NCBI RefSeq assembly: GCF_030580675.1
Contig: NZ_JAUQUB010000003.1
Span: 124,001 to 188,000 of the forward strand
Direction: 5' to 3'
Length of the DNA stretch: 64,000 nucleotides
Source of the DNA: Antiquaquibacter soli
Lineage (GTDB): Bacteria; Actinomycetota; Actinomycetes; Actinomycetales; Microbacteriaceae
Shown: one piece after another, positions 37,247-51,003 of the stretch
Layout of the letters: each line of letters starts with the position of its first letter
How positions within the stretch are numbered: the first letter of the stretch is position 1
Made by a program: the position numbers and the translations under genes
The notes under the pieces: model-generated
What the model saw: the letters and a program-made list of their open reading frames with translations, nothing else
What the model was told of the DNA's origin: nothing
Databases searched by the model: none

Positions 37247-39196
37247 GTGGTGAATCACGTCAACTTCATCTGGAACATCGCCGAGTCCCTACGCGGGCCG
37301 TTCAAGCCGTCCGAGTACGGGTCTGTAGTGCTGCCCTTCACCGTATTGCGCCGTCTCGACGCGGTGCTGGCGGACACGAAAGCTGAGGTGCTCGCGGCAT
37401 ACTCAACGACGGCGGGCAAACCCGACGTGCTACGCGACCTCGAATTGCGCGAGGCGGCCGGGCAAGACTTCTACAACACAAGCCCATTCGACTTCGGCAA
37501 ACTAATCGCCGACCCGCAAGACTTGCGCTCCAACATGGCCGTCTACCTGGCCGGGTTCTCGACAAACGTGCGAGACATCTTCGAGCGGTTTGAGTTCGAG
37601 AAGACTATTAACAAGCTCACCGAGAAGAACAAGCTGTTCGCGGTGACGGAGAAGTTCGCGCAAGCCGACTTTCACCCGCGCACAGTCAGCAACATCCAGA
37701 TGGGGCTCGTCTTCGAGGAGCTGATCCGGTGGGCGAATGAGCGGTCGAACGAGACCGCCGGCGACCACTACACTCCCCGCGAGGTCATCTCGCTGATGGT
37801 GCAGCTGCTGTTCGCCCTCGACGACGACGCACTCACCAAGTCGGGTGTCGTTCGATCGATTTACGACCCAACCGCGGGAACTGGCGGAATGCTGTCGGTC
37901 GCCGAAGAGCACTTGCGCCGGCTCAATCCCGGTATCCAACTCAGCCTCTATGGCCAGGACTACAACGACGCCTCCTACGCGATCTGCAAGGCCGACATGG
38001 TCATCAAGGGCCAGGACGTCGACAACATCGCGCTCGGCGACACCCTCACCGAGGACGCCTTCGAGGACAAGAAGTTTGACTACGGGCTCTCCAACCCGCC
38101 ATTCGGGGTCGATTGGAAGGACCAACGGGCCCTTATCGAAGACGAGCACACAAAGCTCGGCTTCAAGGGTCGCTTCGGACCGGGCACTCCGGCCGTCAGC
38201 GATGGAGCGATGCTGTTTCTGCTGCACCTGGTTTCCAAGATGCGCAAGCCCGAAGACGGCGGGTCGCGGATGGCGATAGTGCTCAGCGGGTCTCCGCTAT
38301 TCTCCGGCGGCGCCGGCAGCGGCGAGTCGAACATCCGGAAGTGGCTCCTTGAGAACGACATGGTTGAAGCGATCATCGGCCTGCCAAAGGACATGTTTTA
38401 CAACACCGGCATCTCGACCTACATCTGGGTGCTCACTAACCGCAAGCAGAACGAACGCCGCGGGCACGTGCAGCTGATCGACGCACGGGAGATGGTCACC
38501 AAGCTCCGCAAGGGGCTCGGATCCAAGCGCAACGAGCTTTCGTCCGAGGACATCCGCACGATCGTCGAGTGTTACTCCGTTTTTGAACCAAACAAGCACT
38601 CCAAGATCTTCCGTAACGAAGACTTCCTCTACCGCACGATCACAGTCGAACGTCCGCTGAAGCTCAACTGGCGGGCGACGCCCGAGCGCGTCGACACCGT
38701 GTTCGAAGCAAAGACCGTGCAGAAATTGAACGAAGCGGATGCCGTCGCCCTTCGTGCCACTCTCAACCGGCTCGGACCTGACCGAGCTTGGAAGAACCGT
38801 GCCGAGTTTCATAAGTCCTTAAAAAATGCTGCGAAAGCCGAAGGCCTGACCCTGCCCGCACCGCTGATCAAGAGCGTGACGACGGAACTCAGCGAGCAGG
38901 ACGACACGGCCGACATTTGCCGCGACGCTAAGGGCAATCCCGAACCCGACCCGTCGCTTCGCGACACCGAGAACGTCCCGTGGGACGAAGACATCGACAC
39001 CTACGCCGCTCGGGAAGTGCTCCCCTACGCCCCGGAGGCCTGGGTTGACCGCACCAAGACCAAAGAGGGCGCCGAGATCCCATTCACGCGTCATTTTTAT
39101 CAGTACATGCCGCCGCGAGCCCTGGAGGAGATCGACCGCGACCTTGAACGCGCTATGGACGAACTCCGCGCGATGCTCGCCGAGGTAGAACGGTGA
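37247..39196 (+). CDS. hsdM: Type I restriction-modification DNA methyltransferase subunit
   Basis: 649 aa. An N-terminal helical HsdM domain (FIWNIAESLRGPFKPSEYG) precedes an N6-adenine methyltransferase domain: the S-adenosylmethionine motif DPTAGTGGM at residue 207 and the catalytic NPPFG at residue 283. The first GTG (37247) follows AGGAG. It methylates host DNA at the HsdS-defined site and forms the M2S core. It overlaps hsdS by GTGA. Codons ending in A or T are more frequent than in flanking housekeeping genes, which fits acquisition by transfer. Confidence 0.97.
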   Translation: MVNHVNFIWNIAESLRGPFKPSEYGSVVLPFTVLRRLDAVLADTKAEVLAAYSTTAGKPDVLRDLELREAAGQDFYNTSPFDFGKLIADPQDLRSNMAVYLAGFSTNVRDIFERFEFEKTINKLTEKNKLFAVTEKFAQADFHPRTVSNIQMGLVFEELIRWANERSNETAGDHYTPREVISLMVQLLFALDDDALTKSGVVRSIYDPTAGTGGMLSVAEEHLRRLNPGIQLSLYGQDYNDASYAICKADMVIKGQDVDNIALGDTLTEDAFEDKKFDYGLSNPPFGVDWKDQRALIEDEHTKLGFKGRFGPGTPAVSDGAMLFLLHLVSKMRKPEDGGSRMAIVLSGSPLFSGGAGSGESNIRKWLLENDMVEAIIGLPKDMFYNTGISTYIWVLTNRKQNERRGHVQLIDAREMVTKLRKGLGSKRNELSSEDIRTIVECYSVFEPNKHSKIFRNEDFLYRTITVERPLKLNWRATPERVDTVFEAKTVQKLNEADAVALRATLNRLGPDRAWKNRAEFHKSLKNAAKAEGLTLPAPLIKSVTTELSEQDDTADICRDAKGNPEPDPSLRDTENVPWDEDIDTYAAREVLPYAPEAWVDRTKTKEGAEIPFTRHFYQYMPPRALEEIDRDLERAMDELRAMLAEVER

Positions 39197-40341
39197 CCTG
39201 GACACCATTCGGGCGCATCGTGCGCTTGGTAACCGAGCGAGCTTCCGAACACGGAAGCTTCCGCATCGGGCTCGAAGCCGTCGAGAAGTCGACCGGGCGA
39301 CTTCTCGACGACGTAGAGGCTGAGTATGCCGGCGACGGAATTGTCTTTCGTTCCGGGGACGTGCTTTTTGGGAAGCTCCGGCCCAACCTCCGCAAGGCAT
39401 GGCTCGCTAGCCGCGATGGGGAAGCAGTCGGCGACTTTCACGTCTACCGGCCTAATCGCGAGCTATTGGTGCCGCGCTACCTAGCGTATCTCGTGCTCTC
39501 CGAGCCATTCTTGGAGCCAGTGATTGCGTCGGTTTACGGTGCCAAGATGCCGCGAGCGGACTGGAACGGAGTAAAGCAGATCGGGGTGTGGGCCCCTGCG
39601 CTCGAAGCGCAGCGTGCGATTGCGGACTATCTGGATCGGGAGACGTCGCAGATCGACGCGTTCATCGCGAAGAACGAGGAACTGATCGCCCTCCTCACCG
39701 AACGGCATGAGGCTCAGAGTTTGCGGCTACTTCTCGAGCAGCCGACGACCCAGCGGGTGCCGCTCAAGGCCGTTTTGCGGAAGCTTCGTCGTATCGCTCC
39801 TGACGATGCCCCAGTTGTGACGGCTTTTCGGGACGGCCAGGTCACGAGCCGGGCAAATCGGCGGATTGACGGCTTCACTGAAACCGAGACCGAGAGCCGA
39901 GGCGCATATCAAGGTGTAAAGACGGGCGACGTTGTTTATCACGGACTCGATGGATTCGCTGGCGCGGTGGGCGTCGCCGAATCAGACGGGATTTGCTCGC
40001 CCGTCTATCACGTGTGTGAGGTGACTTCGCGGGCAGATCCTGAGTACATTGCCCGGCTGCTTCGGGCGCTCGGAAAGAGCGGCTTTCTCGAAGCCTACGC
40101 ATGGAGCGTGCGCCAACGGAGCGTCGACTACCGGAACTGGTCGACGTTCGCACAGCTAGTTGTCGACCTTCCTGCGATCGATGTTCAGCGCGAGGTCATT
40201 GAAGCCCTGTCAGCAGCGGATGAGCGCATGGGTAGGGCAGTTACGATTGCGCGCCGGAGTATCGAGCTTGCGCGCGAGCGGCGAGCAGCGCTGATCTCGG
40301 CGGCGGTGACGGGGAAGGTCGATGTGGGGGTGGCGACATGA
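39193..40341 (+). CDS. hsdS: Type I restriction-modification specificity subunit
   Basis: 382 aa with two target-recognition domains separated by conserved helical spacers. The first spacer reads AQRAIADYLDRETSQIDAFI near residue 140 and the second VQREVIEALSAADERMGRAV near residue 335, the usual internal repeat of HsdS. It directs HsdM and HsdR to a bipartite DNA site that cannot be read from the protein. It overlaps hsdM (GTGA) and hsdR (ATGA), so it is translated as part of one operon. Confidence 0.95.
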   Translation: MTWTPFGRIVRLVTERASEHGSFRIGLEAVEKSTGRLLDDVEAEYAGDGIVFRSGDVLFGKLRPNLRKAWLASRDGEAVGDFHVYRPNRELLVPRYLAYLVLSEPFLEPVIASVYGAKMPRADWNGVKQIGVWAPALEAQRAIADYLDRETSQIDAFIAKNEELIALLTERHEAQSLRLLLEQPTTQRVPLKAVLRKLRRIAPDDAPVVTAFRDGQVTSRANRRIDGFTETETESRGAYQGVKTGDVVYHGLDGFAGAVGVAESDGICSPVYHVCEVTSRADPEYIARLLRALGKSGFLEAYAWSVRQRSVDYRNWSTFAQLVVDLPAIDVQREVIEALSAADERMGRAVTIARRSIELARERRAALISAAVTGKVDVGVAT

Positions 40342-43300
40342 GCAACGCGGCTGGCGCGCACCTTGAATCGGTGCTTGAGATAGAGATCGCGGAGCACCTT
40401 GCCGCGCACGGGTGGCTGTATTCATCGACCGATGCGGGCTACGACCGCTCGCTCGCGCTCCTGCCTGAGGATGTGCTCAGCTGGCTCGAGGACTCGCAAC
40501 AGGCGGAGTTCGAGAAGGTTGTGCGCCCGCACGACGCTCCGGAGAGGCGGGATGCGGCACGGCGTCTTCTACTTGAACGGCTGGCGAAGACACTTGACAA
40601 CGATCCGCTGAAGAACGGCGGCACCATCCGCGTCCTTCACGACGGGTTCACGCTTGTGCCGCCCCACGGCGGAACGGCAAGGTTTAAGATGGCGCAGTTC
40701 CGCCCCGCCACCACCCATAACCCCGACACTCTCGGTGCCTACGCGAAGATGCGGTTGCGGGTAATGCGACAGGTGCATTATTCCGCGAAGCATCCGAACA
40801 AGGCCCTAGATCTGGTGCTGTTCATCAACGGCATCCCGGTCGCCACGATCGAGTTGAAGACGAACTTCACGCAGCCGATCGGGAACGCTGTTGCCCAGTA
40901 CCGCTTCGATCGCGACCCGGCCGGAGAGCCACTGTTCGGGTTCGCGAGGCGGGCGCTCGTGCACTTCGTGCTGTCGAACTCTGAAGTGCGGATGACGACG
41001 CACCTGCGGGCAGCGAAGACGCGGTTCCTCCCGTTCAACAAAGGCTACGACCAAGGCGCAGGAAACCCGCCGAACCCTAACGGGTCAGCATCCTCTTACT
41101 TCTGGGAGGAGATCCTGCAACGCGACAGCTGGCTGCACCTGTTCGGGTCGTTCGTGCACCTGCAGGTCGAAATCGATACCGACCCCGACACGGGCAAGAA
41201 GACCCGCACCGAAAAGGTGCTCTTCCCGCGCTATCACCAGTGGCGTGCCGTCACCCGCCTCGTCGAAGCTGCCCGTGAGGAAGGCCCCGGTCACCGCTAC
41301 CTCGTGCAGCACTCCGCAGGGTCGGGCAAGACGAACTCGATCTCGTGGCTCGCCCACCGTCTTTCACAGCTCCACGATGTAGACAACAGCCGGGTCTTCG
41401 ACACGGTAGTCGTCGTCACCGACCGCACGGTGCTCGACAAGCAGCTGCAAGACGCCATCACGCAGTTCGAGAAGCAAGCCGGCGTGGTCCAGTCGATCAC
41501 GAGAGACGGCAGTGAGTCCAAGTCCGCGCAGCTTGCGGCAGCGCTGACCGGCGGGAAGAACATTGTCATCGTCACGATCCAATCGTTCGAAGCCCTGATC
41601 ACTGCGATCCAGACTCTCCCCGCGCTGCAGGGACGTCGCTTCGCCGTGATCGCCGACGAAGCGCACTCATCGCAGACAGGGTCCACGGCAGGTGCGCTCA
41701 CCAAGGTGTTGTCGCCGGCCGAGCAAGCCGCGATCGCCGAAGGTGCGCCGATCGATTCCGACGCGTACTTGCAATGGGCAATGGAGGTCACAGCAGCAGC
41801 GCCGAACATCTCCTACTTCGCGTTCACTGCGACGCCGAAAGCGAAGACGCTGGAGCTGTTCGGCCGAGTGCCGGAAGGTGGAGATGCCCCCGAGCCATTC
41901 GACCTGTACTCGATGCAGCAGGCGATCGAGGAGGGCTTCATCCTTGACGTGCTTCAGAATTACACGCCCTACAAGGTGGCGTGGAAGCTGCAGCATCCTG
42001 GCGCCGACTACGACAGCGACCAGGAAGTCGACGAGTCGACAGCGGTGAAGGCGCTCGTGCAGTACGTTCGGCTGCACCCGACGAACATCAGTCAGAAGGC
42101 GAAGATTGTCGTCGACCACTTCCGCGCCTACGTGCGTCCGCTGCTGGACGGCAAGGCAAAGGCGATGGTTGTCACCGGTTCCCGCAAGGAAGCGGTGCGT
42201 TGGAAGAAGTACCTCGATAAGTACCTCGACTACGCGGGTGTCACCGATGTGCGCTCGCTCGTCGCCTTCTCCGGCACGGTTGAGGACCCGGAAGATGTCG
42301 GCGAGGGCCTCACCGAACGCACCCAAAACCCTGGCGCTCAAAGCGACCTAGCGGAGGCCTTCAAACCATCCACGTACAACGTGATGATCGTCGCCGAGAA
42401 GTTCCAAACCGGGTTCGACCAGCCGCGGCTGGTCGCGATGTACGTCGACAAGAGGCTCGGTGGCGTGCAGGCAGTGCAGACGCTCTCCCGCCTGAACCGC
42501 ACGTATCCCGCCAAAGACAAGACGTTCGTGCTCGACTTCGTCAACGAACCCGGCGATGTGCTCGATGCATTCTTGCCCTACTACCGAAAGGCGCAACTGA
42601 CGGGGATCACTGACCCAAATCTGATTTACGACCTGGCGACCAAGCTCGACTCGTCCGGAATCTACACAATGGACGAAGTTCGACAGGCGTTCGATGCCGC
42701 GCTCGCTGGGGGCACGAAAGCGAACTCCAAGGTGTCGGCTGCAACCGCGCCAGCCGTCGATAGGTTCGCGAAGCGGTGGTTCGACGCGGTGACGGATGCT
42801 GAGAAGGTAGACCAAGAATTGCTTCAGCTCTTCAAGAGCGACGTCGCAGCCTATGTGAAGTTCTACGACTTCATCTCCCAGGCACGCAATCTCGAGGACA
42901 CCGACCTGCCTCGCAGGCACTATTTCTACAGGCGGATCTATCCCCAGTTGTCGACGGCGACGCTGATGGAACCAGTGGACGTCTCTAGCGTCACCCTCGT
43001 GGACTACAACATCACCAAATCTGGTTCCGTAAAACTCACGCTCGAGGCGGGAGCCAGCCTCGAGCCGATCACTGCGATCGGCTCTGGCGCAGTGCACGAG
43101 AAACACCGCACGAAACTTCAGGAAATCATCGACAAGCTCAACGAGCGGTTCGGCGCCAATTACGGCGAAGGCACCCCCGCCCTCGTCATGGGGCAGGTCA
43201 TTGGCCGACTCGCAACCGACGAGGATCTGATCCATCAGGCGGAGGTGAATACTCCGGAGCAGTTCGCCGAATCGCCGGCACTCCCCAAAGCCTTTGCGAG

Positions 43301-43433
43301 GGCGGTCGTGGGGGTCCGCGATGAGACCCCACAGTTCATGGACGACCTCTTGGGCGACAGCGCGCTCTTCGCCGAGCTCAGCAAAGCGCTCCCTGCGATG
43401 CTCTACGAATTTCTGAAGTCCAAGGAGGACTGA
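40338..43433 (+). CDS. hsdR: Type I restriction endonuclease subunit
   Basis: 1031 aa, normal for HsdR. The nuclease active site lies in VLFINGIPVATIELKTNF, with the E-x-K near residue 172. The superfamily 2 translocase follows: Walker A HSAGSGKTNS near 327 and the DEAH box VIADEAHSSQTG near 440. Later motifs include VAEKFQTGFDQPRL and TLSRLNRTYP. The C-terminal helices bind the methyltransferase core. It cuts unmodified foreign DNA after translocation. The gene appears intact, so the system is probably active. Confidence 0.97.
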   Translation: MSNAAGAHLESVLEIEIAEHLAAHGWLYSSTDAGYDRSLALLPEDVLSWLEDSQQAEFEKVVRPHDAPERRDAARRLLLERLAKTLDNDPLKNGGTIRVLHDGFTLVPPHGGTARFKMAQFRPATTHNPDTLGAYAKMRLRVMRQVHYSAKHPNKALDLVLFINGIPVATIELKTNFTQPIGNAVAQYRFDRDPAGEPLFGFARRALVHFVLSNSEVRMTTHLRAAKTRFLPFNKGYDQGAGNPPNPNGSASSYFWEEILQRDSWLHLFGSFVHLQVEIDTDPDTGKKTRTEKVLFPRYHQWRAVTRLVEAAREEGPGHRYLVQHSAGSGKTNSISWLAHRLSQLHDVDNSRVFDTVVVVTDRTVLDKQLQDAITQFEKQAGVVQSITRDGSESKSAQLAAALTGGKNIVIVTIQSFEALITAIQTLPALQGRRFAVIADEAHSSQTGSTAGALTKVLSPAEQAAIAEGAPIDSDAYLQWAMEVTAAAPNISYFAFTATPKAKTLELFGRVPEGGDAPEPFDLYSMQQAIEEGFILDVLQNYTPYKVAWKLQHPGADYDSDQEVDESTAVKALVQYVRLHPTNISQKAKIVVDHFRAYVRPLLDGKAKAMVVTGSRKEAVRWKKYLDKYLDYAGVTDVRSLVAFSGTVEDPEDVGEGLTERTQNPGAQSDLAEAFKPSTYNVMIVAEKFQTGFDQPRLVAMYVDKRLGGVQAVQTLSRLNRTYPAKDKTFVLDFVNEPGDVLDAFLPYYRKAQLTGITDPNLIYDLATKLDSSGIYTMDEVRQAFDAALAGGTKANSKVSAATAPAVDRFAKRWFDAVTDAEKVDQELLQLFKSDVAAYVKFYDFISQARNLEDTDLPRRHYFYRRIYPQLSTATLMEPVDVSSVTLVDYNITKSGSVKLTLEAGASLEPITAIGSGAVHEKHRTKLQEIIDKLNERFGANYGEGTPALVMGQVIGRLATDEDLIHQAEVNTPEQFAESPALPKAFARAVVGVRDETPQFMDDLLGDSALFAELSKALPAMLYEFLKSKED

Positions 43434-43481: not shown

Positions 43482-44555
43482 CTAGATCGCGCCCTCGTCG
43501 ATCACCCAGGCTCGCCGCAGCGGAATCGCTTCCTTGATGCTCTCCGGCATGACCTCGTAGTGCTTGAGGAAGCGCTCGACGAGCTCCTCGGCATCCCACA
43601 CGGCGACTCGCAGGCGCTGGGCATCCACCTTCGCTTGGGCCTGGGCCGTTAGTCCGCCGAGAGTCACTAGCAGGCCATGGTCCGCTTGGTGCTGACCGAC
43701 CACACCGCCCAGCTGGTCGAGCACCTCGGAGCCGACACGACTGGTCTGGGATTTCACCTGCACGATGATCGTCGGCGCCGAGATTCCCAGAACGCCTGAG
43801 CCGGCGATGATGTCGATGCCTCCGTCGGCCCCCTTCGGTGGGACCTTGCACGTCATCCCCTCGGCGATCAGGAGCTCGGCGACGAGATCCTGGAGAGGGT
43901 AGCCGGAGAACTTCTCCTTGATGCGGCTCAGAATGCGGTCGCGTGAGTACCGGATGATGTCCTGGCCGTCGGCGGCGATCGCCTCGTCGGTGTCGACAAC
44001 ATCGGTGTCTTGTCGCGGAAGAGTGAGCGCGACGCCAGCCCGCGCGCCCGGATCGACCTCGGCGCCGGCCATGATCTTGCCGAGACGATAAGCCGCATCG
44101 TTGCGGCTGATCTGCACGACGGTGCTGAAGGCACCGAGCGAGTAGAGCAGGTCCTGGTTGATCGAGGCGCGCGACACATCCGTCCGCACCCACTCCACCG
44201 TTCGCACATGATTGAGCACGCCGGGCTCCGTGAGGTACTGGTAGGGGCCGGTCACCCGGCCCAGCGCCAAGCGGCCGACATTCTTCAGAGGGAGAACAAC
44301 GAGGTCACCGATCTCCATGCGGTTGGCGAACGCGTTGAGCTGCGCTGCATAGTTCCCAATCGCGCCCTCCGACCGATCCGAGAGGATGGGCGCGACGAGG
44401 GCGCGCATCGCCGGGAGATCGTGCGCCACACTGAGGTCGCCGATCTCGTGGAAGTCCACGGCGGTGTAGCCCTCGTCGAGCATCCACTGATCGAAGCTGT
44501 AGTTCTTGGAACCGCGGACGAGCCAGGCGCGGGGCTGGTCAGTTTCGTGAGACAC
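43482..44555 (-). CDS. Mrr-type restriction endonuclease
   Basis: 357 aa. The C-terminal Mrr_cat domain has the PD-(D/E)xK site: GGIDIIAGSG with aspartate near residue 245 and IIVQVKSQ with the Q-x-K near 268. The N-terminal 150 residues form a separate domain (RAWLVRGSKNYSFDQWMLD, GDLVVLPLKNVGRLALGRV) that resembles modified-DNA or nucleotide-sensing modules of type IV enzymes. Such proteins cut DNA carrying foreign methylation. It is convergent with hsdR, so two opposing strategies against foreign DNA sit side by side. Confidence 0.88.
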   Translation of the reverse strand: MSHETDQPRAWLVRGSKNYSFDQWMLDEGYTAVDFHEIGDLSVAHDLPAMRALVAPILSDRSEGAIGNYAAQLNAFANRMEIGDLVVLPLKNVGRLALGRVTGPYQYLTEPGVLNHVRTVEWVRTDVSRASINQDLLYSLGAFSTVVQISRNDAAYRLGKIMAGAEVDPGARAGVALTLPRQDTDVVDTDEAIAADGQDIIRYSRDRILSRIKEKFSGYPLQDLVAELLIAEGMTCKVPPKGADGGIDIIAGSGVLGISAPTIIVQVKSQTSRVGSEVLDQLGGVVGQHQADHGLLVTLGGLTAQAQAKVDAQRLRVAVWDAEELVERFLKHYEVMPESIKEAIPLRRAWVIDEGAI

Positions 44556-44650: not shown

Positions 44651-45892
44651 ATGCCCGAACCCGCACCGGATGAAGAGGTCGAGGCGATCGGACGTCTCGG
44701 CGTCGCGCTCCTCGACGCGGGCTACGCCGTCACCGATGTGAGCCGCGTCGCGAAGGCCGTCGCGCGCAGCAACTCCGCCGAGTTCACCGTCGGCGCCCTG
44801 CCGACCGGCGTCTTCGTGGACGACGGCGACCGCACCCGCGTGCTCGTCTCCACCGGCACCTCGTTCACGTTCGAGCAGGTCGGGGTCGTCGGCAAGCTCG
44901 CCGCCGAAGCCGAGCGTGGCATGCCGTGGCCCCAGCTGCAGGCGGGCCTCGACCACCTCTACACGATGCGGCCCCGCTACCCGTTGTGGCTCTCGCTCCT
45001 GGGCTCCGGGCTAATCTCCGGCGGCATCGCGGTGGTGCTCGGCAATCCGTGGTGGGCTGTTGGCCTGGATGCTGCGCTGGGCATCCTCGTCGGCTACATC
45101 CTCACCGTCGCGGGACGCTACCCGCGCATCGCCGCCGTGCTCCCCTTCTTCTTGGCGCTCGTGATCGCGCTGCTCGTCGGGCTCACGGCGTCGCTCGCCG
45201 GCATCGCGGAGGTGCCGTTCTACGCGATCTCCGCGCCGCTCGTCATGCTCATCCCGGGCGCCGCGGTCACGAACGCGCTCATCGAGGTGAGCGCGGGCGA
45301 CGTGGTCTCCGGCGGTGGGCGGTTGGTGTCGGGGCTGACGATCTGGGCGATGCTCGCAGCCGGCACGGTCGCCGGCGTGGGCATCCTGGGCGGACGGCTG
45401 GATGACACGGCCGTCGTCCTCGGAACCGGCGGCGGCCCCGCCCTCGCCGCCGTCGACCCCCTGTTCGCCTGGCCCGCTGTCGCGCTGCTCGCGATCGGGG
45501 TGGGGGTGTTCCTGTCGGCCACCATTCCGGTGACGCTCGTCATCACCGCGACGCTGCTCCTCGCCTACGCGGGCACCCTCGTGCTGACGCCGCTGCTCGG
45601 CGCGGGATTCGCGGCGGCCGTCACCGCGGCGGTGCTTCTCCTGGCGCTGCGCCTCCTCGAGCGCGGGTGGCCGAGCCTGCCCGCGATCGTCACGTTCCGG
45701 CCGGTGTTCTGGCTGCTCGTGCCCGGATCGCTCGGCCTCATCGCCGTCAGCAGCCTCGGCTCGGATGGCTCGGAGCACATGATCTGGACGACCGCGTCCA
45801 CCGTGCTCGGGCTCGTCATCGGGGTGCAGGTCGGCGCGGTGGCGTCGGAGGCGTTCCGGTCGGGGCCGGGGCACAACGGGGAGCGGGGATAG
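44651..45892 (+). CDS. thrE: Threonine/serine exporter family protein
   Basis: 413 aa. An N-terminal cytoplasmic domain (FTVGALPTGVFVDDGDRTRV, residues 1-115) precedes about ten membrane helices (LSLLGSGLISGGIAVVLG, FFLALVIALLVGLTASLAG, and so on). This is the ThrE/DUF1212 architecture, known from Corynebacterium for threonine and serine efflux. GGAGG lies before ATG 44651. It sits within the defence island but is itself a housekeeping-type gene with GC-rich codons. Confidence 0.9.
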   Translation: MPEPAPDEEVEAIGRLGVALLDAGYAVTDVSRVAKAVARSNSAEFTVGALPTGVFVDDGDRTRVLVSTGTSFTFEQVGVVGKLAAEAERGMPWPQLQAGLDHLYTMRPRYPLWLSLLGSGLISGGIAVVLGNPWWAVGLDAALGILVGYILTVAGRYPRIAAVLPFFLALVIALLVGLTASLAGIAEVPFYAISAPLVMLIPGAAVTNALIEVSAGDVVSGGGRLVSGLTIWAMLAAGTVAGVGILGGRLDDTAVVLGTGGGPALAAVDPLFAWPAVALLAIGVGVFLSATIPVTLVITATLLLAYAGTLVLTPLLGAGFAAAVTAAVLLLALRLLERGWPSLPAIVTFRPVFWLLVPGSLGLIAVSSLGSDGSEHMIWTTASTVLGLVIGVQVGAVASEAFRSGPGHNGERG

Positions 45893-46148
45893 ACATACGC
45901 AACGGAATGACCTTGACGGGCCGAGGGCTCGTCCAGTCGCGGCAACCACGTAGTGCCCTGCGCTCGCTGCACGGCTGAGGATCGTGAGATCACGGCATCG
46001 ACCCCCGTAGGGGCCACCGCGGAAAGTGCTCCTTGCGTTGACGTTCGTCGCGTTCCACGCCCGCGATCTGGGCTTATTGCCCACGCGTGCCCGCACAATT
46101 GCACGCCGGTCGGGATCGCACGTGGCGGAAGCTATTCGCGCGTTGCTC

Positions 46149-46535
46149 CTACCAGCGGCGATGGAACAGCCGTTTCCACCATTGTCTTGGGAACGCGGCG
46201 CGGTGATCGTTGATCGCGCGGCGATCAGCGATCTGCGCTCTATTCGTCTGAAGCTCGCTCAGGGGCCGACGCCAGTCGACCTCACCACGGGTGATGAAGT
46301 AGTGCGAGTTGCAGGGGAGCGCGGTCGCGGCCACAGAGGGACTGAGGGAGATCTCGCCGTCGAAGCTAACGCGCCACCTTGCCGGTGAGAGCTTGGTCAC
46401 CACTTCGCCACCGCATCCGCAGGCGCACAGGTGACCCGCTGTCGAATACGCGACGGAGACATAGAGAATGGCAGGCTCCAGCGGCGTCGGAAAGGACTCC
46501 ACAAATCGAACAATGTAGCGATCAGTCGGCGACAT
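46149..46535 (-). CDS. DUF6527 protein of ubiquitin-like operon (Cys/His cluster)
   Basis: 128 aa, small and soluble. The family pattern is clear: RFVESFPTPLEPAILYVSVA, then HLCACGCGGEVV with His35, Cys37, Cys39 and Cys41, the WRVSFDGE strand, and LPCNSHYF with Cys75 and His78. This set is likely a zinc site. DUF6527 genes accompany bacterial multiubiquitin/ThiF operons. The start is ambiguous (46535, 46544 or 46547); 46535 best fits the family. It overlaps the E1-like gene by 14 nt. It holds the only cysteines in the operon. Function is unknown; a substrate adaptor or ligase-like role would be a guess. Confidence 0.82.
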   Translation of the reverse strand: MSPTDRYIVRFVESFPTPLEPAILYVSVAYSTAGHLCACGCGGEVVTKLSPARWRVSFDGEISLSPSVAATALPCNSHYFITRGEVDWRRPLSELQTNRAQIADRRAINDHRAAFPRQWWKRLFHRRW

Positions 46536-47688
46536 GCAGGTCACCATTCCTGATCTCGTTCAGGTAGAGCTTGAAAACGGTGACGTTGGACGCTTCGTGT
46601 GTGGCGTAAAACCCGAGATGTCTCTTCCAACGTATGACTGCCAAGAGTGCGTTCATTGCGTTGAGATCCGCGATCTGGATGTTGCTGCGGTAATCGTCCT
46701 CCTCCGGAGCCACGGCAGGCGCTGTGGGCAATGCCGCCAAATCACCAGGGAGGTAGGTCGAAACCTTCGCCAGACCCGTGAGACCGCTATCGCCCTCCCG
46801 AAAGCTCATGCCGACATCGATGAACGGAATGTCACGCTCTCGAAGGTGGCGCATGATGTACGGACGCGCCTCAGCGTCGGCGGCCGCAAGGAACACGAAC
46901 GTGCTCCCGTCTAGAAGGTGCAGATTGTCAGCGGTGAGAGCCACGGGGCGGGCAACGATGCCAGTGTGCATCCGAGCGTACTCGTCCGCGAAGTACTCAG
47001 CCTTGTTCCTATGAGAGAAAACGGCATCTCGCGAAGCTGCGCCGGGTGCACGATAGGCGTTGTGCGGCTCTAACTCGTCCCCGTCGATGAGAATGATTTG
47101 ATCCACCCAGGTCTTGGCAACCTGATCGAGTATGTAGCTGCCGGTGCCACCGATCCCGACGATGGCTACTCTTTGACCACGAAACAGGGTGTTGAGGGTT
47201 ATCAAGCCAACGCGAGTGGCGTTGGTATCCGGATATACCAACGGAAGGTCGTCCGGAACGACCTGAAACGCACCCTGCCTCGGATCCGCCGCGAGGCCTT
47301 CTAGATCATCCCCGCGGGCGAGGACCCGCGCATAGTGCCGCACCTTGTCGTACACACTTGGATACCTATCGCCATGGGGCTTGAAGGACAGCATGTACTT
47401 CGCCTGCTCACCGACACCGTAGTCATGAGCTCCAACGCTCCCAAGAGGAGCTTGGTTCTCATCCAAAGGTTCGTCGCCCGCGAACCACATGGTGTGGTCA
47501 CCCGCATCCGTGACGAGACCGTCGGAGTAGCTAACCGGGATCAGTAGGATGCCGTCGCGTCGAGGCCCGTTGGGTGAACGATAAACGATCCGACGAACGA
47601 CAAGGTGCCCCTGCTGGAGCACCAGGTCGTAGCCTTCGTCGACTAAACGAGCTATTGCTTGATCAGGAACGGTTGGCGGGTTCGACAT
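46522..47688 (-). CDS. E1-like ThiF-family adenylating protein of ubiquitin-like operon
   Basis: 388 aa. An N-terminal region of about 165 residues (DUF6791-like, starting PDQAIARLVDEGYDLVLQQG) precedes a ThiF/E1 Rossmann domain. The ATP site is VGIGGTGSYIL near residue 180 and LIDGDELEPHNAYR near 205. There is no cysteine anywhere in the protein, so the thioester step of classical E1 enzymes cannot take place on it; adenylation chemistry alone, as in MccB, remains possible. It overlaps the Ubl gene by 26 nt and the DUF6527 gene by 14 nt. Confidence 0.88.
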   Translation of the reverse strand: MSNPPTVPDQAIARLVDEGYDLVLQQGHLVVRRIVYRSPNGPRRDGILLIPVSYSDGLVTDAGDHTMWFAGDEPLDENQAPLGSVGAHDYGVGEQAKYMLSFKPHGDRYPSVYDKVRHYARVLARGDDLEGLAADPRQGAFQVVPDDLPLVYPDTNATRVGLITLNTLFRGQRVAIVGIGGTGSYILDQVAKTWVDQIILIDGDELEPHNAYRAPGAASRDAVFSHRNKAEYFADEYARMHTGIVARPVALTADNLHLLDGSTFVFLAAADAEARPYIMRHLRERDIPFIDVGMSFREGDSGLTGLAKVSTYLPGDLAALPTAPAVAPEEDDYRSNIQIADLNAMNALLAVIRWKRHLGFYATHEASNVTVFKLYLNEIRNGDLHVAD

Positions 47689-47908
47689 CGAAAACCATGC
47701 CGTCCTTTACCTCAACAGATTTGCCCGGTCGAAGATCATGGTCCGGACCATGCCCCCTGCTGTACTCCACCGTGGTGAGTGCCGGGTCATAAGGCTGTCC
47801 CGGCGCGGCGAGCTCGACCACTTGTTCGAAGGTGATTTTCTTTTCGGACCACGGAAGCGATCGAGTGTTGACGATGATCGTCACAGTCTTGTCCTTGAGG
47901 GCTGCCAT
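47663..47908 (-). CDS. Multiubiquitin-type ubiquitin-like protein
   Basis: 81 aa with one beta-grasp domain. Signature elements: VTIIVNTRSLPWSEKKITF, then VVELAAPGQ and a C-terminal KDGMVFDVEPANRS, as in the multiubiquitin family. Only one copy of the domain is present. There is no cysteine and the end is not the di-glycine of eukaryotic ubiquitin. ATG 47908 follows GGAGG by seven bases. It is the first gene of the operon with the E1-like and DUF6527 proteins and is presumably the modifier adenylated by the E1-like protein. Confidence 0.87.
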   Translation of the reverse strand: MAALKDKTVTIIVNTRSLPWSEKKITFEQVVELAAPGQPYDPALTTVEYSRGHGPDHDLRPGKSVEVKDGMVFDVEPANRS

Positions 47909-48035
47909 TTCGATTCCTCCATCATTTTCTGCTCGCGACAAACATTTTCACTTAAGCCACCACAGTAGCGAGCGGCCCCGACATAGGACGGGCTGCCGTA
48001 CGTTGTCTGGCCGAGCCAACTAGTACATTGCCATC

Positions 48036-48875
48036 GTGATTCATCTCGAGTCCGAGTCCCCAGCGCAAGCCGCATCCGACATCCGCCGCCAGGGCTACGA
48101 GGCAAGCAACGTGCTCGGCTCGGGGCTCGGACTCGTCGACAGATTCAACGCTTATCTCACCTGGGCCGCGCGGGCGACCGCTCAGCTCGCTCAACACCTA
48201 GATCACAGGCAACTGAATGAGCTCGTGACCACGCCTCGGTATTGGTCACTTCAAGGGGTGGAACCGATCGCCTATGGGCCGGCGCTGTCCGAGGTCCTGA
48301 ACAATGAGCTGATCGCCCGCCAGGCTGCGCTCGATGCTGCTGCGCAGGAGATCGACGCTGCAGTTCAGAAGTGGGGCCGATACTCAGCAGTTGTCCTCGA
48401 CACCAATGTCTTCCTCGAGATTTGGGATCTCGTGGAGCGCATCAACTGGAACCGGAAGCTGGGCGAGTTCCCGCACGTCCCAATCGCGCTCGTACTTACT
48501 TCAAAGATGCTCGAGGAGATCGACAACCTCAAGGACCGCGCCCCCTCACAAGCGGCTCGCAGGCGAGCTCGCGAGGCGACCAAGTATCTGGAGAACGAGT
48601 TCCCACGAGGACAGTTTCGTCAACTCCGGGGAGAAGCATGGGGTGACATGGAGTCAGCGCTAGGTTGGGTATTGCACCTCGACGCCCTCGAGCATCAGCC
48701 CCTCCCCAAGGCCGACTCCGAAATCCTCAGTCAGGCCCTAAAGATCCGCCCGTACGCGGCAGGTATCGCGATCGCCAGCAACGACTCGAACATGCGATTT
48801 ACGGCGAGGTCTTACAACCTGACCGCCTTCACGGTGAACGCGGATGAAGTCCTCCCGGACAGCGCAGTTCAATAG
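48036..48875 (+). CDS. PIN-like domain protein (putative RNase)
   Basis: 279 aa. The N-terminal 110 residues are helical (ARATAQLAQHLDHRQLNEL). The PIN fold follows: VVLDTNVFLEIWD near 120 with the first acidic residue, LTSKMLEEIDNLKDR near 160, and IASNDSNMRFTARSY near 250. These provide the acidic metal site of PIN nucleases. It is divergent from the ubiquitin-like operon, with 127 nt between them, and has no antitoxin-sized partner. It may be an effector or a regulator of the island; this is inference. Confidence 0.8.
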   Translation: MIHLESESPAQAASDIRRQGYEASNVLGSGLGLVDRFNAYLTWAARATAQLAQHLDHRQLNELVTTPRYWSLQGVEPIAYGPALSEVLNNELIARQAALDAAAQEIDAAVQKWGRYSAVVLDTNVFLEIWDLVERINWNRKLGEFPHVPIALVLTSKMLEEIDNLKDRAPSQAARRRAREATKYLENEFPRGQFRQLRGEAWGDMESALGWVLHLDALEHQPLPKADSEILSQALKIRPYAAGIAIASNDSNMRFTARSYNLTAFTVNADEVLPDSAVQ

Positions 48876-48939
48876 GTCGGGAACTCGGCAGATTCGGGCG
48901 CCCCCTGACAGGGACGGAGATTTAGGCCCCGCACATGTT

Positions 48940-49431
48940 TTAGTCCCTCTGCGCGGGCTGAGTCTGGCGTCGGGTCCGTGCCGATCGCAAACGGCCCGAA
49001 CCGTTTCCAAGCCATCCGAACACGCGCATACCTAACCAAACCGTTCCCAGCACGAGGAACGCGAGGACTAGGAGAGCCGTTCCCAGGAAGCTTCCGAGCA
49101 CCGCCCCCACAAGCACGTTGTACAGTCCATCCGACCACTCGCGAATAGGCTCCCCAAACTCCGAGAGAACGGAGCCGAGCAAGAGGGTCGCGAGAACAAA
49201 ACCGACGAGCGGCGGCCAGGGATATTGCTGCGCTCGACGAAGCGCGCGAGCATCCTCCTGGCGAATCTGGGCTAGATCGGCGTAAGCCGGGTCGTGGACC
49301 GGTAGGTCCTTGAGGATCCTGGAGATTGCTTCGAGGCGCCCGACACGGCTCCGAGCAAAAACGGCGGTTATGACGGCAGTCGCTATTGCACCCAACACCG
49401 TTATGAGAGCGATGCCGTATCCTTCGGTCAT
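48940..49431 (-). CDS. Membrane protein of unknown function
   Basis: 163 aa. A first helix (YGIALITVLGAIATAVITAV) is followed by a charged cytoplasmic stretch of about 40 residues and two more helices (PPLVGFVLATLLLGSVLSEF and LVGAVLGSFLGTALLVLAFL), and it ends with a basic tail. It is convergent with the PIN-like gene. The layout recalls small membrane proteins at defence loci, but no family is recognised. Confidence 0.65.
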   Translation of the reverse strand: MTEGYGIALITVLGAIATAVITAVFARSRVGRLEAISRILKDLPVHDPAYADLAQIRQEDARALRRAQQYPWPPLVGFVLATLLLGSVLSEFGEPIREWSDGLYNVLVGAVLGSFLGTALLVLAFLVLGTVWLGMRVFGWLGNGSGRLRSARTRRQTQPAQRD

Positions 49432-49521
49432 GCTATGAGGCTAGGGCCGCTACTCGTGGTCGGGCTAGGGTCTTCCCTTCGAGAGCCTCAGGGAACCGCG
49501 GTAACCACTACCCTCTGTCTC

Positions 49522-51003
49522 ATGCGCCGCGCATCCCTCGTCTCCGCACTCGCCATCGCCGCCATCGCCGTCACCGCCGCAGCATCCGCGACAGGGGCCG
49601 CTACCGCCGCCCAGCCCGGCGAGCTCACCGGCCTCGAGTACGTCGCCCTCGGCGACTCCTACCAGGCGGGCTTCGGCCTCGAGCCGTACTCCACCACCAC
49701 GCCGTTCACCGGCAACCCGAACGGCTGCTACCAGTCGCAGGACGACTACCCGAGCCGGGTCGCGGCATCCCTCGGCCTCGACGTCACAGACCAGACCTGC
49801 AGCGGCGCGGTCACCGCGAACATCGGCTACCCCGACGGCGTCACGTTCACGAACCCGCCCGCCGCGCAGCCGCTCCCCGCGCTCGCCACGGGCGACGAGC
49901 TGCAGGTGACGCTCGCGGGCCTCACCGTCCCGGAGCTGCAGAAGGCCGGGCTCAGCGACTCCACCGCGGTCGTCACGGTGGGCATCGGCGGCAACGACCT
50001 CGGGTTCTCCCACATCGCGGAGGCGTGCATCCGCACCGGGGTCGACCCGTCGAGCGAGCCCGTCTACCTGGCACTCGAGCTGGGCATCAGCGTGCCCAAC
50101 TGCGCCGACTACTTCGGCGACCCGACGACCTACCCCACCGCGGACCTCTTCACCCGGATGACGGATGCCGTCGCCCCCCGCATCGACGGAGTGCTCGACG
50201 CCATCGCCGAGCTCGCCCCCAACGCGCAGGTGTTCGTCGTCGGCTACCCGATGGTGACCCCCGCGGACGCGACGAACGCGTGCTTCACCGACCCCACCAC
50301 CCCCAACTCCGTGCCCTTCTCCGGGACCGACCTCGAGTTCATCCACTCCGTCGAGATCGCCCTCGACGGGGCGCTGCAGACCGGGGCGGAGGAGCACGGG
50401 TTCCACTTCGTGACGAGCTGGGCGTCGTCCGCGAACAACACCCTGTGCTCCGCCGAGCCGTGGATCTGGGGCCTCACTGCCTACGAGAACAGCCAGCCCA
50501 CGTGCGACGCCAACTACCTGCCGGTGCTGAACGGCGAGATCTGCGTCGAGCTCGGCGCCCTCCACCCCACCGCGGACGGCATCGCCAACCTCGCCCGACT
50601 CACCACCGCGGCGGTCGACTCCGCGTTCTTCGTGGAGCCGGCGAGCGCCTCCGTCGCGGTGGGGGCGGGCACGAGCATCCGGGGCGGCGGGTTCCAGCCG
50701 GGCGAGACCGTGCTGCTGCGACTCACCTCCGGCAGCCGCATCGTCGACTTGGGAACGGCGACCGCCGACGCATCCGGCAGCTTCACGAAGTCGGTGACGC
50801 TCCCGGCGGGCTCGCCCACCGGTGCCGTCACCGTCAGCGGAACCGGCGCCACCTCGGGCCGCTCGTTCAGCTCGCCGCTGCAGGTGTCGCCCGCGCTCGC
50901 CGCCACCGGAACGGATGCCGCGGCTCCCGCCGCGCTCGCCGCGGCCCTCCTCGTGCTGGGGGCCGCCGCGCTCACGCTAACCCGCCGCCGCCGCGCCGCC
51001 TGA
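49522..51003 (+). CDS. Secreted SGNH/GDSL lipase with LAxTG sortase signal
   Basis: 493 aa. A signal peptide (SALAIAAIAVTAAASATG) precedes an SGNH hydrolase: GDSYQAGFG with the catalytic serine at residue 46, the GGNDLGF block, and LHPTADG with the histidine near 348. Cysteines in pairs suggest disulfides, as in Streptomyces-type secreted lipases. A beta-sandwich region follows. The C-terminus has LAATG, a hydrophobic helix and RRRR, the class E sortase signal, so the enzyme is probably wall-anchored. ATG 49522 gives the signal peptide. Confidence 0.93.
   Translation: MRRASLVSALAIAAIAVTAAASATGAATAAQPGELTGLEYVALGDSYQAGFGLEPYSTTTPFTGNPNGCYQSQDDYPSRVAASLGLDVTDQTCSGAVTANIGYPDGVTFTNPPAAQPLPALATGDELQVTLAGLTVPELQKAGLSDSTAVVTVGIGGNDLGFSHIAEACIRTGVDPSSEPVYLALELGISVPNCADYFGDPTTYPTADLFTRMTDAVAPRIDGVLDAIAELAPNAQVFVVGYPMVTPADATNACFTDPTTPNSVPFSGTDLEFIHSVEIALDGALQTGAEEHGFHFVTSWASSANNTLCSAEPWIWGLTAYENSQPTCDANYLPVLNGEICVELGALHPTADGIANLARLTTAAVDSAFFVEPASASVAVGAGTSIRGGGFQPGETVLLRLTSGSRIVDLGTATADASGSFTKSVTLPAGSPTGAVTVSGTGATSGRSFSSPLQVSPALAATGTDAAAPAALAAALLVLGAAALTLTRRRRAA

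Follow-up and report, generated by a model that had tools for sequence, protein, structure and literature searches.

A three-gene ubiquitin-like operon with a cysteine-free E1-like protein in Antiquaquibacter soli: a sister of the Bub pathway with a possible thioester-free mechanism

The operon and its three proteins

In Antiquaquibacter soli, a compact operon encodes a ubiquitin-like modifier (Ubl) and a protein resembling ubiquitin-activating enzymes (E1), neither of which contains a cysteine. The operon lies in a stretch of 64,000 nt (NZ_JAUQUB010000003.1, positions 124,001-188,000), which is called the window here and to which all coordinates refer, and it occupies 46149-47908 on the minus strand with three open reading frames (ORFs), each overlapping the next head to tail. 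The Ubl (47663-47908, 81 amino acids) is a single Multi_ubiq beta-grasp domain (PF14452, E 4e-16) and ends with ...EPANRS; the E1-like adenylyltransferase (46522-47688, 388 amino acids) consists of a DUF6791 domain (residues 11-155; PF20590, E 1e-20) and a ThiF domain (residues 171-299; PF00899, E 7e-14), and its ORF overlaps that of the Ubl by 26 nt (47663-47688); the third protein (46149-46547, 132 amino acids) belongs to DUF6527 (PF20137, E 6e-21). All these Pfam matches are above the family cut-offs, and the three overlapping genes are as they had been described in the original prediction, which had been made from the DNA letters alone. The nearest NCBIfam entry of the E1-like protein is a 'hypothetical protein' group (PRK06153, E 2.5e-93), with 313 bits below its cut-off of 340. 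Counting confirmed the predicted lack of cysteine, with zero in the Ubl and zero in the E1-like protein, and DUF6527 is the sole cysteine-containing protein of the operon. Its predicted His/Cys cluster is real as far as the residues are concerned, but the numbering (H35, C37, C39, C41, C75, H78) had started from Met5 and becomes H39, C41, C43, C45, C79 and H82 when counted from the first ATG. A pseudogene was considered and rejected, as relatives of 63-70% identity have open ORFs.

For comparison, at least 555 relatives of the E1-like protein were confirmed in one scan of genome contigs, and the best 80 of these, together with five loci from a sample of the class and the window itself, form the set of 86 loci that is referred to in the following. 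The three genes were detected at these loci by profiles built from small alignments, and the trio was found at 83 of 86 loci, on a single strand in all 83; the exceptions are one locus without a Ubl match (L027) and two without a DUF6527 match (L068 and, at a contig end, L095).

Adenylation site, cysteines and the terminal serine

The adenylation site of the E1-like protein appears intact, and its residues suggest an adenylating activity. G178, G180, G181, G183, D202, D204, N210, R213 and K229 are each present in 86/86 relatives, and two of them also in 11/11 E1s that resemble BubCD of the Bub pathway: Arg213 (codon 47050-47052), whose H-N-A-[FY]-R motif was itself part of the pattern by which the relatives were searched, and Lys229 (codon 47002-47004), probably the adenylation lysine, a role that we presume by analogy to MoeB. 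An acidic residue at position 270 or 271 (46876-46881) is likewise found in all 86. Position 270 is Asp in 70 and Glu in one of them, and the other 15, including the window, have Ala270 followed by Asp271, which is an apparent shift of the catalytic acidic position by one residue. A further residue of interest is Tyr333 (codon 46690-46692), which aligns with Tyr370 of a Citrobacter BubCD homologue and is a tyrosine in 86/86 relatives and 11/11 BubCD-like E1s; the title of PDB entry 9eav names a BubCD(D104A/Y370F) variant.

Judged as a canonical ubiquitin E1, the protein thus has the adenylation domain (GxGGxG, D202, N210, R213, K229, D271) and lacks the catalytic cysteine, both in the protein itself and as any column that is cysteine throughout the 86-row alignment. 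The column that comes closest is that of Leu75 in the DUF6791 motif G..PC...G (codon 47464-47466), where 69 of 86 relatives have Cys, 6 have Arg, 5 His and 2 Tyr, with a single occurrence each of Ser, Val, Phe and Leu; the runner-up, the column of A268, is Cys in 31. Six of the 86 ORFs, namely those of the window, L003 and L021-L024, are entirely without cysteine. The absence of cysteine that the original prediction had noticed is real, but it does not single out the window operon, as neither the 86 relatives nor the 11 BubCD-like E1s have an obligatory cysteine, and as far as the alignments tell, the cysteine-free state is the lineage extreme of a family without one.

The frequent Cys75 could mean that DUF6791 is a cysteine-dependent domain of the kind found in ubiquitin-conjugating enzymes (E2), acting through H65 and C75 in most relatives, and that the lineage of the window has lost, substituted or impaired this step. 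This would fit the 69 cysteines, the invariance of H65 (86/86) and the fact that Cap2-type E2 domains are also N-terminal to an E1. Yet the residue has changed repeatedly: on a quick maximum-likelihood tree of the E1s, from which residues 73-77 had been left out, the label of cysteine or no cysteine at position 75 changes nine times, and eight of these changes are forced by well-supported branches, for which reason Cys75 is probably not the core nucleophile. The lineages without it have retained the operon together with the invariant residues, the replacements are mutually dissimilar, and the order of the predicted elements of DUF6791 did not look UBC-like by eye (no search was made with DUF6791 alone), so that an E2-like DUF6791 must be considered unlikely.

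As to genuine E2 proteins, neither an E2 nor a JAB gene was found adjoining the operon among the ORFs and Pfam matches of the window, in agreement with what had been noted from the letters alone. The additional proposal that an E2 lies elsewhere found no support in the genome-wide check, within the families covered. A search of the whole 3.22-Mb genome for Prok-JAB, Prok-E2_B and Prok-E2_E was negative, and the idea of an E2 or JAB gene at another site in the genome was rejected on these grounds. The same search detects Prok-E2_E in 2/2 and Prok-JAB in 3/3 control records of the BubCD type, while the negative result for Prok-E2_B is without a positive control, and the search did not extend to Prok-E2_A, Prok-E2_D, UQ_con or further MPN/JAB families. 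Prok-E2_E was also absent from 41/41 other genomes or records with an operon of the DUF6791 type (drawn from 88 such loci). With no cysteine in the Ubl or the E1 and no E2 gene found, the canonical thioester relay from E1 to E2 is unavailable to this system, just as had been predicted.

The last encoded residue of the Ubl, Ser81 in the window (codon 47666-47668), is serine in 85/85 loci with a Ubl match (RS 39, KS 28, QS 16, LS 2), even though the median pairwise identity of the last Ubl domain is 37.5% over 3,570 pairs. The spacing from the Ubl stop to the E1 is the same in 82/85 loci, and a terminal serine that is merely a by-product of the gene overlap was considered. This was rejected, as the serine is retained in the three exceptions, including two (L049, L050) whose ORFs are separate from each other, and as residues 2-14 of the E1 include no column conserved in 90%. 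A Ubl profile also matched PDB 9cd2, a 'multi-ubiquitin domain protein' with the C-terminus TDKS, whose tail resembles the DUF6791 type.

DUF6527 is the third conserved component. It was matched in 84 of 86 loci, with C41, C45, C79 and H82 in 84/84, C43 in 83 and H39 in 82 of these, it is annotated in 10/12 regions of the BubCD type, and the C-x-C-x-C...C-x2-H cluster was seen in one BubCD-type operon as well. As the cysteines and histidines are conserved jointly in this spacing, the cluster reads as a metal site and DUF6527 as a probable metal-binding partner. The alternative, which had been one of the original options, is that DUF6527 is itself the transfer enzyme, a non-homologous E2 or ligase (E3) whose cysteine cluster would accept the Ubl from the adenylate and hold it as a thioester. 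The presence at nearly all loci and in most BubCD-type regions, the invariance of three cysteines and, in the window, the lack of cysteine in any other protein of the operon are in line with this. The spacing of four Cys plus His, on the other hand, is that of a metal site, for the extra protein of such operons a Zn finger or metal binding has been predicted in Iyer 2006 (PMC1779556), and no invariant cysteine is clearly spare for catalysis, which makes this alternative improbable. The signature given there, C-x3-C-x35-38-H-x2-C, denotes a similar type of cluster to that of the window, C41-x3-C45-x33-C79-x2-H82, but with a different spacing and order.

Relation to known systems and a proposed mechanism

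Operons of this kind are not without precedent. In the portion of Iyer 2006 considered here, operon class 6e is described with one to three Ubl repeats, a Cys/His protein, and an E1 that carries an N-terminal JAB domain or, in a subset that includes an actinobacterium, a 'domain X', and some members of the class have a cysteine-less E2/RWD-like protein. The operon class was already outlined in 2006. The window operon fits the subset without JAB, as it has a single Ubl domain and an E1 whose N-terminal domain is other than JAB, namely DUF6791, which we take to be domain X. For the domain X subset, that portion of the text contains neither a mechanism nor a mention of the terminal serine, and a literature search, mostly below the level of full texts and without Ye et al. 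2026 and Gong et al. 2025, found no account of the terminal serine and nothing on the mechanism of the DUF6791 type.

The closest studied system is the Bub pathway (Ye et al. 2026; Gong et al. 2025). The E1 of the window is closest to BubCD, the Bub structures matched by fold are PDB 9ea4, 9ea5, 9ea8, 9eae and 9eav, and the position of Tyr370 is kept. It differs as follows: DUF6791 stands where BubCD has JAB; the genome lacks matches to Prok-E2_E, which BubB appears to be, and to Prok-JAB; and in the BubCD-type operons the separate tail-less Ubls have the C-terminus TEG, with a terminal glycine, in the three cases seen, as opposed to the serine of the window. Because two defining parts, the E2-like protein and JAB, were tested for and not found, the system counts as a sister to the Bub pathway with its JAB, and not as Bub proper.

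Similarities to other systems are confined to the ThiF part. This holds for Cap2 of the type II cyclic-oligonucleotide-based anti-phage signalling system (CBASS) and for the 6A-MBL E2-E1 proteins (PADLOC E1-E2, E 6e-9; NCBIfam 6A-MBL, E 6e-8), which have E2 and E1 cysteines, and it holds for MccB, whose match is limited to the ThiF half. The substrate of MccB is a heptapeptide and not a Ubl, and in the window the neighbouring substrate candidate is the Multi_ubiq Ubl, not a short peptide gene. Chemistry that runs via an acyl-adenylate as in MccB nevertheless fits best of the three options that had originally been proposed, with the adenylation site apparently intact and BubCD, MccB and PaaA as the top ranks of Foldseek for the E1-like protein. 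From this ranking of MccB and PaaA after BubCD, and from a Ubl tail that always offers the reactive side chain of a serine, it could also be argued that there is no conjugation at all and that the E1 yields Ubl-AMP or another C-terminally modified Ubl, comparable to MccB and MccA, as a free signal or a filament subunit. This is doubtful, as BubCD, the nearest solved relative, has been solved with BubB and Ubl according to PDB titles, and as the title of the Bub paper names protein conjugation.

On balance, the evidence modestly favours an adenylate-based, thioester-free transfer of the Ubl that involves Tyr333, in a sister of the Bub pathway without an E2-like protein and JAB. The Ubl would be made with its reactive, serine-terminated tail already exposed, so that a maturation protease would not be needed. 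The ThiF domain, to go by the residues of its site, would then bind ATP and adenylate the carboxylate of the C-terminal serine, and the acyl group would be handed on without a thioester, with Tyr333 either as the nucleophile that forms a Ubl-O-Tyr ester or as the general base for the acceptor. DUF6791 and DUF6527 may position or choose the acceptor and thereby replace E2 and E3. The likeliest outcome would be a Ubl conjugated either to itself or to a protein of the host or of a phage, within a mobile defence module that responds to stress or phages. It is a real but lesser possibility that the DUF6791 type represents a complete three-gene conjugation pathway, in which one E1-like enzyme both activates and ligates via an acyl-adenylate and a tyrosine without any cysteine, with a modifier ending in serine and DUF6527 as a new E3-like adaptor.

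Several points weigh against thioester-free transfer through Tyr333. C75 is kept in 69/86 relatives and hence useful for something, and the lineage of the window could be a degenerate branch; the cysteines of DUF6527 could act chemically; and the part played by Tyr370 of BubCD is known here solely from the title of PDB 9eav. The absence of E2 proteins covers Prok-E2_E with a control and Prok-E2_B without one, and no other E2 families, and the search of the 41 records for Prok-E2_E had no internal match, its control coming from a separate search, with completeness stated for 5/41.

Ubiquitin-like conjugation is usually defined by the thioesters of E1 and E2. What makes the system relevant is that here a widespread family, with at least 555 relatives, has retained both the modifier and the fold for its activation, while an E2-like protein and an obligatory cysteine are absent as far as searched. 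In the repeated loss of the common cysteine, nature has carried out a mutagenesis experiment of its own, and single-residue handles on a thioester-free Ubl transfer are offered by Ser81, Tyr333 and the DUF6527 cluster.

Distribution, surroundings and possible role

The minimal three-gene set is mobile and widespread among bacteria and not a lone oddity. According to the record titles, carriers are found in Actinomycetota, Proteobacteria, Bacteroidota and Planctomycetota, and there is one metagenome-assembled genome of Nitrosopumilus. The E1 is encoded on 114 of 72,556 plasmid records, 83 of these 114 plasmids being typed as mobilizable or conjugative, and in one of three plasmid regions that were viewed, Tn7-like transposition genes adjoin the operon. 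Among viral contigs there were 7 confirmed loci from 99 pattern matches, and the 50,697 phage records gave no match at E 1e-5, on which basis an identity as a phage gene was rejected. At the level of the class, DUF6791 was above the cut-off in 6/394 sampled genomes including that of A. soli, with a seventh match below it. Within the genus, 12/27 genomes match the E1-like protein, the window's own with 878 bits; the other 11 matches are weak (18.7-28.8 bits) and confined to residues 163-329, and the DUF6791 protein itself is thus present in 1/27 genomes.

A defence or stress role seems likely, and an immune role can be suggested, from this sporadic presence, from the plasmids and from the neighbours. 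The genes that recur in the vicinity encode ImmA/IrrE-like peptidases and XRE-type regulators, and their clusters are present at 16, 16, 12, 11 and 6 loci out of 86; the families were named by eye, and the record annotation agrees in 2/3 plasmid regions. Directly beside the window operon there is no ImmA/IrrE-, XRE- or Cap-type regulator. According to PMC13373217, 219 of 544 Bub operons adjoin CapW or CapH+CapP and 59 adjoin CapK+CapS, and a protection against phages by Bub operons has not been demonstrated. Just upstream of the Ubl in L055, L069 and L093 there are proteins of ~186-200 amino acids that by eye look like CapS, the STAS-wHTH repressor known from Bub operons. A UvrD-like protein of ~1,130 amino acids with an ImmA-peptidase-like N-terminus is encoded directly upstream of the Ubl in 11/86 loci, for example at L082:3768-7169, and the same ImmA/helicase-like protein at L109:3792-7187 is annotated as UvrD. 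In the BubCD-type operons, a proteolytic subunit of an ATP-dependent Clp protease is annotated after DUF6527 on a Rhizobium gallicum plasmid (L130:4263-5147), which could connect the modifier with proteolysis, and a 'phosphotransferase' lies between the E1 and DUF6527 in Deinococcus (L138:3786-5234) and Bradyrhizobium (L139:3752-5356).

In the window, the location among restriction genes, from which an immune role had originally been guessed, was borne out by a type I hsdM-hsdS-hsdR set (37247-43433, plus strand; assigned by Pfam among others, hsdS by a weak Pfam match alone, E 0.026) and an adjoining gene of an Mrr-like endonuclease of the candidate defence family PDC-S02 (43482-44555, minus strand; PADLOC E 2e-119), with the gene of a ThrE-family exporter (44651-45892, plus strand) between these and the operon. 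On the other side, the divergent neighbour of the Ubl gene encodes a PIN-domain protein (48036-48875, plus strand; PIN_4, E 3e-12), which by eye has no counterpart among 40 neighbour clusters of the relatives' loci, and beyond it lies the gene of a protein that by eye looks secreted (49435-51003). In two genomes of the same genus (G396, G402), the exporter and the secreted-protein gene have matches that likewise lie ~3.6-3.7 kb from each other, with different genes in the interval, which indicates that the operon occupies a variable insertion site (44651-51003 in the window). By eye, the genes between these flanks in the two genomes include one that resembles a macro-domain gene and one for a repeat protein.
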